Part shown: positions 36,766 to 39,500 of the stretch, piece after piece
How positions within the stretch are numbered: position 1 is the stretch's first letter
Layout: the number at the start of each line of letters is the position of its first letter
NCBI GenBank assembly: GCA_002839315.1
Contig: PGXV01000009.1
Coordinates: forward strand, 124,001 to 188,000
Direction of reading: 5' to 3'
Length of the DNA: 64,000 nucleotides
From: Spirochaetae bacterium HGW-Spirochaetae-3
GTDB taxonomy: Bacteria > Spirochaetota > Spirochaetia > Treponematales > UBA12059
The notes under the pieces: generated by a model
The model's input: the letters and a program-made list of their open reading frames with translations, nothing else
Databases searched by the model: none
Told to the model about the DNA's origin: nothing
Made by a program: the position numbers and the translations under genes

Positions 36766-36796
36766 CGTCAACGACACGACGCCCCGGGACGGGATC

Positions 36797-36974
36797 CACG
36801 ACACGACGCCCCGGGACGGGTTCGGGAATTCAGAAAGGCCTCGTTAATCATCTCGGAGGGGCCTGACCATGGATAAACGGCCATCGCTGCGCGACGGCGC
36901 GTTTTCCATGGTCACCCTCCTCCGCGTGCATGCGAGGCTTGTTAGGAACAAGGGTTAAGGGGCGTCGTGTCGTG
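36797..36974 (+). repeat. Repeat element copy A with 16-bp terminal inverted repeats
   Basis: 178 bp bounded by CACGACACGACGCCCC (36797-36812) and its exact reverse complement (36959-36974). It contains a 51-nt hairpin (36864-36914) with 10 perfect outer pairs, TGACCATGGA/TCCATGGTCA, and a small CTTGTT/AACAAG hairpin (36938-36952). MITE-like; no transposase. A 29-codon open frame with GGAGGGG ahead starts at the internal ATG (36869). Confidence 0.75.
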
Positions 36975-36999
36975 CCTTTGGCGCGGGAAGATAGGGACC

Positions 37000-37173
37000 C
37001 ACGACGCCTCGGGACGGGTTCGGGATCACTGTAAGGCCTTTGTTAATCATGACGGCGGGGCCTGACCATGGATAAACGGCCATCGCTGCGCGACGGCGCG
37101 TTTTCCATGGTCACCCTCCTCCGCGTGCATGCGGGGCCTGTTAGGAACAAAGGTTAAGGGGCGTCGTGTCGTG
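37000..37173 (+). repeat. Repeat element copy B
   Basis: About 200 bp after copy A and highly similar. The same hairpin lies at 37063-37113. The right end repeats GGGGCGTCGTGTCGTG (37158-37173), while the left end keeps only CACGACGCC. The 29-codon frame stays open (start 37068). Confidence 0.75.
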
Positions 37174-37199
37174 CCTTTAGCGCGGGTAAGATAGGGACC

Positions 37200-37345
37200 C
37201 ACGACGCCCCGGGACGGGTTCGGGAATTCTGAAAGGCCTCGTTAATCATCTCGGGGGGCCTGTCATACGAAAATGGCCTTCGCTGCGCGAAGGTCGATTT
37301 TCTTATGACACCCTCCTCCGCGTGCATGCGAGGGCTTTGGTGCGG
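37200..37345 (+). repeat. Repeat element copy C, diverged
   Basis: Same left half as copies A and B. Its hairpin (37261-37310) differs at many stem bases but keeps pairing (TGTCATA/TATGACA). The right terminal repeat is missing; the sequence runs into the module at 37433-37459. Confidence 0.7.
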
Positions 37346-37591
37346 AAGATAGGGTATCGGGTGCACTACTGCCGGCTCGCGAGACGCCGCCGTTGACCTG
37401 CGAGCGCAACGAGTCAGGTCGAACGACGGCTAGCGATCGCCGCGCCAGTCGGCGATCGCGGCTTTTGCGCGGGTGAGTATCAGCTGCGTGGATCAAGGCT
37501 CGGGGGTAGGGGAGAAGCGTATGAAGGATTTAGTGGAACAGGGGACGAGCGGTTCAGCTACCCATCTGTCGATCCGCTAGTCCACTCGGGG
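37346..37591. other. Intergenic spacer before the Abi gene, with a 9-bp-arm hairpin module
   Basis: Contains GCGATCGCC-N9-GGCGATCGC (37433-37459) followed by GGCTTTTGCGCGGGT. The same module recurs beyond the Abi gene (38811-38857). The remaining bases (37473-37591) hold no gene I can support. Confidence 0.6.
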
Positions 37592-38539
37592 CTACTGCAA
37601 GCCGCGGTGTGCATCTTTCGCGAACAAGGGCTGCGATTCCCAGTCTCCTGGAAATCCGAGAGATGGCAACTGCCCGGGACGTAGTCTCGCTATGAGCGAA
37701 CGTAGCGTATCGTCGATACGTACTTCTGGCGATGCCGCTCGTAGAAGTTTTACCACGATGCAGAGCGATGCATAGATTCGGTTGTGGTTTGGCCAGTAAT
37801 CCACCCATGGCGGGGTGCTTCCGGTCGGGAAGATCGGGGTTACTTTTAGAATCCTGCTGAAAAGCCTGCCATGATGAGCGCAGATATTACGCACGAGATT
37901 GAGGTGGTGGAACCAGTTGACGAGCACCTTGGTCGATGCGCGAGAGAAGCCCCAGAATCCGGCTATTCTCTGCTTGCAGGGCAAGGCGAGATTCAAATTA
38001 CTATAATACCTTGAAAGTATTCCAAGCGATGTCGTCTCAAGGATTTTCCAGGCCGGGGGAGGATCATTATCGTCGTATGTACTCTTATGATGCTCGACGA
38101 ATACTTCCTTGGACCTTTCCCAATCGGCGTAGAGGTCCTTGATATCTCTAGACCATGCCGCGCGATTGAAAAAGAGCGATGAATCCGCATACCACCGCGC
38201 TCCATGATCCAAGGAAACCTGGAGGACGAGCTGGGTTCTCAATGAGACCTCGACTCGCTCTATCGCATCGAATACGAGAGCGCGAAGATCGCGATCGAAT
38301 TCGTAGTCATACTGTATCCAGTTCCATTGCGCGCCATCGAAGAATGGCGTGTCGGGGAGGGTATTGTCCTGGTACGGGTAGGTGTAACCTCGCCAGCGAT
38401 AGTAGCTTACTCGACCGAGAACGGCGATTAAATCGGGCTTGGCTATGCCTTGAAGTCCCCTGTTAAGTAGGAGGTCGGCTTGCGCTTCTAGAGGAAGCGG
38501 CGGCTTAGCGTAGATCGGCTTTGATGTATTATCAGACAA
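37592..38539 (-). CDS. Abi_2/AbiF-type abortive-infection HEPN protein
   Basis: 315 residues. The sequence fits the Abi_2 family (AbiD/AbiF): early YAKPPLPLEAQADLLLNRGL, then LGRVSYYRWRGYTYPY, RDLRALVFDAIERVEVSLRT, and late LNLVRNICAHHGRLFSR (about 207-223), which carries the R-x4-H HEPN ribonuclease motif. These proteins abort phage infection, probably by cutting RNA; I recall that AbiF members pair with a small RNA antitoxin and are related to Cas13. TTG start at 38539 with GAGGA 8 nt upstream. A structured RNA candidate lies just upstream. Lower GC than neighbours; flanked by repeats, so acquired. Confidence 0.82.
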   Translation of the reverse strand: MSDNTSKPIYAKPPLPLEAQADLLLNRGLQGIAKPDLIAVLGRVSYYRWRGYTYPYQDNTLPDTPFFDGAQWNWIQYDYEFDRDLRALVFDAIERVEVSLRTQLVLQVSLDHGARWYADSSLFFNRAAWSRDIKDLYADWERSKEVFVEHHKSTYDDNDPPPAWKILETTSLGILSRYYSNLNLALPCKQRIAGFWGFSRASTKVLVNWFHHLNLVRNICAHHGRLFSRILKVTPIFPTGSTPPWVDYWPNHNRIYASLCIVVKLLRAASPEVRIDDTLRSLIARLRPGQLPSLGFPGDWESQPLFAKDAHRGLQ

Positions 38540-38561
38540 GGGTAGATCCTCGCCTTAGGGC

Positions 38562-38621
38562 AAAAAAAGAACCCCTCTGGGTGCGCTTGCGAGCAGAGGC
38601 GCGAGGGGTCTCGTTACCCAG
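38562..38621 (-). ncRNA. Candidate structured antitoxin-like RNA with terminator
   Basis: Upstream of the Abi gene on its strand. TTGTAG-17-TATAGT (38650-38622) is followed by a G/C-rich stretch ending in seven U (38568-38562). Pairings: ACCCCU (38609-38604) with AGGGGU (38576-38571), the terminator stem; CUGGGU (38621-38616) with ACCCAG (38582-38577). Their order is interlaced, so both together make an H-type pseudoknot; GCGC/GCGC forms an inner hairpin. The TATAGT promoter would start near 38615, leaving out CUGGGU, so the pseudoknot needs a slightly longer transcript. Layout (promoter, short RNA, terminator, toxin) resembles type III toxin-antitoxin loci. Confidence 0.45.
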
Positions 38622-38714
38622 ACTATACAGCATGCCGGAGCTATCTACAAGGCTATTCATACATACTAATAGGGCTAAGTGTAGGCTCATACGGGCTGGT
38701 GTCAAGGAAAAGAT

Positions 38715-38929
38715 CCACGACGCGACGCCCCGGGACGGGTTCGGGAATTCAGAAAGGCCTCGTTAATCATCTCGGAGGGGCCTGTCATACGAAAATGGCC
38801 TTCGCTGCGGGCTAGCGATCGCCACGCCAGTCGGCGATCGCGGCTTTTGCGCGGGTAAGATAGGGTGTCGGGTGCCCGATAGTGTAACTGAACCACTGAA
38901 CCCCTTCTTCTAGCCTGGCGTCGTGTCGT
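38715..38929 (+). repeat. Repeat element copy D, hybrid
   Basis: The left part equals copies A and C up to the apex of the hairpin (TGTCATACG... to about 38809), then jumps to the GCGATCGCC hairpin module (38811-38857). It ends with GGCGTCGTGTCGT (38917-38929), matching the right terminal repeat of copies A and B. Confidence 0.65.
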
Positions 38930-38946: not shown

Positions 38947-39008
38947 AGTGATCCGTTATCTGTAATCAGTGACCACGATACCGTATCTTCCACAGATCAC
39001 AGGTCACT
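38947..39008. repeat. Heptad repeat element, copy 2 (degenerate)
   Basis: GTGATCC, GTTATCT, GTAATCA, GTGACC heptads, then core ATACCGTATCTTCCAC, shared with copy 1 except one base, then CAGATCACAGGTCAC. It overlaps the 3' end of the next gene. Confidence 0.65.
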
Positions 39009-39500
39009 CTTCATCTTCCGCAACAGCTGCACGGCGGTCTTGCCGTCCTCGCGGACGAGCCTGAGCGTCAGCTCGCCTTCGCCGGCGGCCTTGGTCCACC
39101 AGGCCTCGCGGGCGAACCACTCTATGGAATCGGCTAGCCAACCGTCGACGGCTGGGCCCTCGACGTCGGCGGGCTTGCGGTCCTGGGTAAAGAGGTACTG
39201 GCCTGGTTCCAGCCGTTCCGCGTCGGAGGTGGCGTCCCCGGAGTCGGCGTCTCCGGGGGGGGCGATGAGGCCGGACGCGGCGATCCTGGCGGGCGGGGGC
39301 AGGGGGCGCCTGGCGGAGGGGCCGTCGTCGCAGGCGGGATCGACGAGCGCGTCCCAGTCCCACGCCATGGTCAGCTCGGAGCCCTCGGGGGCTTTCGCGA
39401 TGGCCTCTATCGCGTCGGTCGGGGAGCGGACGGCGGCGCGTTCGGCTTGGCTACGGTACCATTCCAGCCGTTTGTGCAGGTTGAGCGTCAGTAGTGTCAT
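38997..39500 (-). CDS. Hypothetical protein
   Basis: 167 residues. Starts MTLLTLNLHKRLEWYRSQAE, has a Pro/Ala/Asp-rich middle (65-100), then a conserved-looking C-terminus with W-rich DSIEWFAREAWWTKAAGEGE and LTLRLVREDGKTAVQLLRK. No family recognised. The C-terminal codons are within heptad repeat copy 2, so the natural tail may have been altered by repeat insertion. Divergent from dxs (71 bp gap). CATACT lies 6 nt before the ATG, another possible leaderless start. Confidence 0.6.
   Translation of the reverse strand: MTLLTLNLHKRLEWYRSQAERAAVRSPTDAIEAIAKAPEGSELTMAWDWDALVDPACDDGPSARRPLPPPARIAASGLIAPPGDADSGDATSDAERLEPGQYLFTQDRKPADVEGPAVDGWLADSIEWFAREAWWTKAAGEGELTLRLVREDGKTAVQLLRKMKSDL

Follow-up and report, generated by a model that had tools for sequence, protein, structure and literature searches.

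AbiF proteins are bacterial phage-defence toxins of the Abi_2 family, with a HEPN domain, that work together with small structured RNAs. The AbiF of Clostridioides difficile is toxic by way of its R/H motif; binding of its RNA, whether in cis or in trans, neutralises the protein, and this neutralisation depends on the RNA stem (PMC12373285). PbAbiF takes up one ncRNA per monomer, and the RNase is inhibited by nucleotides of the RNA bulge (PMC12737573). AbiF has also been linked to the ancestry of Cas13 (PMC12165695). The RNA partners are represented in Rfam by RF03085, and further AbiF-RNA covariance models, those of Zilberzwige-Tal et al., are cited in PMC12804078.

We analysed a 64-kb stretch of DNA (hereafter the window) from Spirochaetae bacterium HGW-Spirochaetae-3, in which the first-pass annotation had proposed an AbiF-type HEPN gene preceded by its own structured RNA and an intrinsic terminator. 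Covariation and a covariance model built without the window both supported this proposal. The kind of system is already described, and the window contains an additional AbiF/abiF RNA locus, with a single motif that scores below the Rfam cut-off. We estimate at roughly 0.9 the probability that the locus encodes a single-motif AbiF toxin together with its abiF RNA antitoxin, working as set out below. Its features are as follows.

37592..38539, minus strand: abiF gene, encoding an Abi_2-family HEPN protein of 315 aa with a TTG start and R217-x4-H222
38562..38616, minus strand: abiF RNA (RF03085-like), with leader, hairpin with 3' bulge, and U-run, delimited by the held-out covariance model
38616-38610, minus strand: conserved leader UAACGAG within the abiF RNA
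38603..38609, minus strand: 5' arm of the outer stem, ACCCCUC (7 pairs, each with compensatory changes in relatives)
38599..38601, minus strand: 5' arm of the inner stem, CGC (covariation and held-out model)
38584..38586, minus strand: 3' arm of the inner stem, GCG (covariation and held-out model)
38578..38583, minus strand: 3' bulge CACCCA, its position kept in the alignment of relatives
38571..38577, minus strand: 3' arm of the outer stem, GAGGGGU, doubling as terminator stem (covariation and held-out model)
38562..38568, minus strand: U7 tract, part of the intrinsic terminator that separates the RNA from the gene (from the sequence; U-runs are likewise placed in relatives)
38622..38627, minus strand: TATAGT, -10 box of the probable promoter of the RNA; 6 nt separate it from the conserved leader, as in most relatives whose box is of this type
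38645-38650, minus strand: -35-like TTGTAG, with a 17-nt spacer to TATAGT (weak, 3/6)
38705-38678: second promoter-like site, TTGACA-16-TACACT, upstream of the first
38616..38621, minus strand: CUGGGU, the proposed first arm of a pseudoknot, following the -10 box and preceding the expected start (about 38615)

The assignment of the gene to the Abi_2 family was borne out. The protein matched Pfam Abi_2 (PF07751) with an E-value of 4.9e-43 and 148 bits (cut-off 25.6), as a single Abi_2 domain within the 315 residues, and it matched the AbiD model of PADLOC with an E-value of 5.9e-55. A sequence search of the PDB gave one convincing relative, the PbAbiF dimer with its ncRNA (8vz6; E 9.7e-37, residues 12-306). 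The fold predicted with AlphaFold2 from 40 aligned sequences had a pLDDT of 93.6; employing it as a Foldseek query, we found 8vz6 far ahead of all other structures (E 1.9e-18, TM 0.86/0.91), the runner-up having an E-value of 0.34. The R-x4-H motif claimed near residue 213 is present but lies at R217-NICA-H222. R217, N218 and H222 are invariant, the invariance of R217 and H222 being judged in alignments of 20 and of 40 sequences.

To examine the segment before the gene, upstream regions of relatives were gathered by protein similarity alone; in the search of genome contigs, a single-protein query returned no relatives and an alignment query returned 80. These upstream regions showed the same order of elements: a -10 box, an AAYAA-like leader, a stem, CGCCUCU, a loop, GCGCACC, the second stem arm and a U-run. 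In the window, the GC-rich segment noted on first inspection is present, as is the run of seven Ts before the gene (38568-38562). The RNAs of 46 relatives were aligned without that of the window. Covariation extends to all 10 base pairs, each of which has changes on both sides in some relatives. Paired cells amounted to 99.1%, compared with 84.9% after shuffling and 29-47% in slid controls, and compensatory cells numbered 53 versus 8.3 after shuffling; the rows had first been chosen with a structural template that required a stem, which favours pairing, while the letters of leader, loop and bulge lay outside the template. RNAalifold independently recovered the identical structure. The leader, the CGCCUCU at the start of the loop and the GCGCACC at the bulge are conserved as sequence across phyla.

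A covariance model built from these 46 RNAs, from which the window was excluded, gave one match in the 64-kb window (E up to 10), at 38616-38562 on the minus strand, full length, with 55.5 bits and an E-value of 1.5e-12. All 10 pairs are intact in this copy. Over the 3.9-Mb genome the window RNA was the only clear match (E 8.5e-11; next 0.5). The model also found the RNA in 47 of 53 relatives outside the training set, nearly always immediately upstream of the gene and on the same strand. Of 33 loci that are more divergent, 17 had a match with E below 0.01, a count that includes the copy in the window itself. Clearly, a conserved structure upstream of homologues, for which the first-pass annotation had suggested searching, exists, and the segment before the abiF gene is an abiF RNA of the RF03085 type. 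The proposed role as RNA antitoxin is likely, by analogy with characterised systems. One relative, L020, carries tandem abiF RNA motifs (1285-1346 and 1418-1484) before one Abi_2 gene, like RCd22 of C. difficile.

The conserved stem runs into the U-run and is able to terminate transcription, and the C. difficile RNA also lowers abiF expression in cis (PMC12373285). The hairpin and terminator might accordingly be a cis-acting attenuator only, limiting transcription of abiF without binding the protein. We consider this very unlikely: the leader, CGCCUCU and GCGCACC, kept as sequence across phyla, would be superfluous for a terminator, and homologous RNAs bind protein and act in trans (PMC12373285; 8VZ6).

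Against RF03085 itself, the window RNA scored 25 bits when a stretch of 81 bases was scanned, aligned end to end; the gathering score of 37 bits is a threshold set by the database and does not define the RNA biologically. No abiF match came from Rfam scans of 16 kb or 241 bases, nor from RF03085 over the whole genome. As the match appeared only in the 81-base scan, the 16-kb and 241-base negatives are probably filter losses. Among the 20 close relatives, all of which have the motif upstream, five reach the RF03085 cut-off, so a score below it is usual in this group; L013, L009 and L020 are among the relatives that exceed it. Routine annotation would therefore miss the window RNA.

The promoter claimed for the RNA, TTGTAG-17-TATAGT, is present letter for letter (38650-38645 and 38627-38622), although its -35 box is weak. 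The -10 box lies 6 nt ahead of the leader in the window and in the commonest class of relatives; Bacteroidota-type boxes (TAnnTTTG) mostly lie 4-5 nt ahead. From this spacing, transcription is expected to start at about 38615, which would leave CUGGGU untranscribed. The 5' end is not certain, given the weak -35 box and the second promoter-like site at 38705-38678.

The position of CUGGGU matters for the H-type pseudoknot that had been proposed from two interlaced 6-bp pairings. Both pairings exist as letters: CUGGGU (38621-38616) is complementary to ACCCAG (38582-38577), and ACCCCU (38609-38604) to AGGGGU (38576-38571). Only the latter, which is the main conserved stem, exceeds chance. Two interlaced 6-bp helices occurred in 23 of 3000 dinucleotide shuffles, though one of the helices in the window is a real stem; as for the other, 3.8% of random 12-mers from the window paired equally well with the loop and bulge. 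In an alignment of 30 sequences, the window included, CUGGGU/ACCCAG was paired in 44.4% of cells versus 40.0% after shuffling and 29-43% in slid controls, as compared with 98.7% for the main stem. We further exchanged flanks and bulges among 117 distinct relatives. The 5' flank formed a mean helix of 2.86 with its own bulge and 2.84 with the bulges of others; stem pairing in this test is not independent evidence, because the template had picked those stems for pairing.

A ToxI-like antitoxin in which the two pairings form a toxin-inhibiting H-type pseudoknot is thus extremely unlikely. Both are exact 6-bp Watson-Crick helices that would stack end to end, and the upstream promoter-like site could yield a longer transcript containing the 5' arm. 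However, CUGGGU/ACCCAG shows no covariation, 5' flanks do not prefer their own bulges, and in L013 and L043, which are near relatives, this pairing is all but absent. The conserved leader follows 6 nt after the -10 box, and by pairing, CUGGGU would sequester the bulge plus one base of the main stem. We rejected the pseudoknot on the lack of covariation and the flank exchange; what relatives retain is a simple hairpin that is bulged on its 3' side. The weak point conceded when the pseudoknot was proposed, that the start would fall just inside the first pairing arm, was well taken: the CUGGGU arm, which comes after the -10 box but before the conserved 5' end (AACRA), is probably untranscribed.

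A longer transcript from 38705-38678 that carries CUGGGU could also serve as a locus-specific two-promoter switch, in which CUGGGU could pair with ACCC segments close by, disrupt the hairpin of antitoxin and terminator and so switch on the toxin. The 60-nt form folded alone has a different lowest-energy structure, and the relatives show no CUGGGU-type pairing. Such a switch seems barely plausible.

We therefore return to the single-motif toxin with its RNA antitoxin. The anatomy and structure of the RNA are conserved, and it is probably transcribed. Most transcripts from the promoter at 38650-38622 would begin at about 38615 and end in the U-run, at 38562, so that an RNA of some 54 nt would be made in abundance. 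Occasional read-through would produce the abiF mRNA, presumably translated from the TTG at 38539. The protein is predicted to have a HEPN RNase fold and, by homology, to form a dimer in which the R217/H222 sites cut single-stranded RNA. As in PbAbiF (8VZ6) and C. difficile AbiF/RCd22, one RNA would be bound per monomer and the 3' bulge would block activity; by homology, CACCCA would correspond to the single-stranded RNase-inhibiting bulge of PbAbiFr (PMC12737573). Phage infection or stress might lower the level of the RNA, and the freed toxin would then halt growth. Toxicity and neutralisation at this locus are thus expected from the characterised homologues.

The abiF module is accessory. Between alaS and a neighbour gene encoding a 167-aa protein there are 2231 bp in this genome (36766-38996), holding abiF and repeat copies. 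In two genomes of the same genus (G016 and G018) the two genes end 16-31 bp apart with no abiF, and in two others (G017 and G013) they are separated by 0.4-0.6 kb of other sequence; the site resembles a hot spot for insertions. A protein tree placed the window protein in an eight-member clade (100/100) with proteins from Treponema, Fibrobacter and other members of the same phylum or class, while the AbiF proteins of the genus and family to which it belongs (L003 and L002) branch far away. This placement points to horizontal acquisition of the module between alaS and its neighbour.

Members of one repeat family lie on both sides of the module, at 36793-37477 and 38712-38859. The left side has three copies in tandem, spaced about 199 bp; the right side has a composite copy whose blocks are 96-100% identical to the left-hand copies and for which the genome has 19 matches, several of them at the ends of contigs. 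The 167-aa protein (38997-39500, minus strand) is encoded beside dxs, is present in 18 of the 23 genomes of the family and had no match in NCBIfam. The repeat-rich insertion site, the TTG start and the weak -35 box would suit a decayed module whose gene or RNA no longer works in this genome, but the open frame is full-length with all invariant residues kept, the fold is confidently predicted and none of the 10 RNA pairs is broken, so decay is very improbable.

Among known systems, type III toxin-antitoxin loci (ToxIN, TenpIN and CptIN) have in common with the window an RNA antitoxin before the toxin gene and a terminator between them. They have a ToxN-like toxin, a tandem-repeat antitoxin and a pseudoknot, whereas the window has a HEPN protein, one motif and an unsupported pseudoknot. 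Of the type III layout claimed for the locus, the order promoter-RNA-terminator-toxin stood. The locus has neither a tandem repeat nor a ToxN-like protein: the held-out model found a single motif in the window, and PbAbiF was the only significant match among solved structures. Compared with the RF03085 consensus, the window RNA has the same outer stem, 1-nt spacer, 3-bp inner stem, 6-nt 3' bulge and downstream Abi_2 gene, with the bulge reading CACCCA instead of CAAAUC. The AACRA/AAYAA leader, found in the window and upstream of Abi_2 genes in relatives L004-L142, is not covered by the Rfam model; it coincides with the expected start of transcription and offers a concrete 5' end for binding studies. 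The locus is thus a compact single-motif case that the present Rfam model misses.

C. difficile AbiFCd-RCd22 (PMC12373285) has the same order of promoter, abiF RNA, intrinsic terminator and Abi_2 toxin gene, and shares the R/H motif and the RF03085-type hairpin. RCd22 is part of the lysis module of a prophage and contains two abiF motifs, whereas the single motif of the window belongs to an insertion between chromosomal genes. Identity between the window protein and its homologue in phage phiC2 is only 25%. PbAbiF-AbiFr (PDB 8VZ6; Zilberzwige-Tal et al., Cell 2025) matches over nearly the full length of the fold, both proteins being Abi_2 HEPN proteins, and has a cis-encoded ncRNA with a single-stranded bulge as in the window, the RNAs being likened from the description in a review (PMC12737573). 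The window protein is 28% identical to PbAbiF and may have a similar activity. Cas13 of type VI CRISPR shares HEPN RNase ancestry with the window protein (PMC12165695) but has two HEPN domains per protein instead of one, and no guide array was seen beside the abiF gene. Since AbiF with its RNA is the proposed precursor of Cas13 with its guide RNA, well-supported members from further lineages are useful for tracing this transition.
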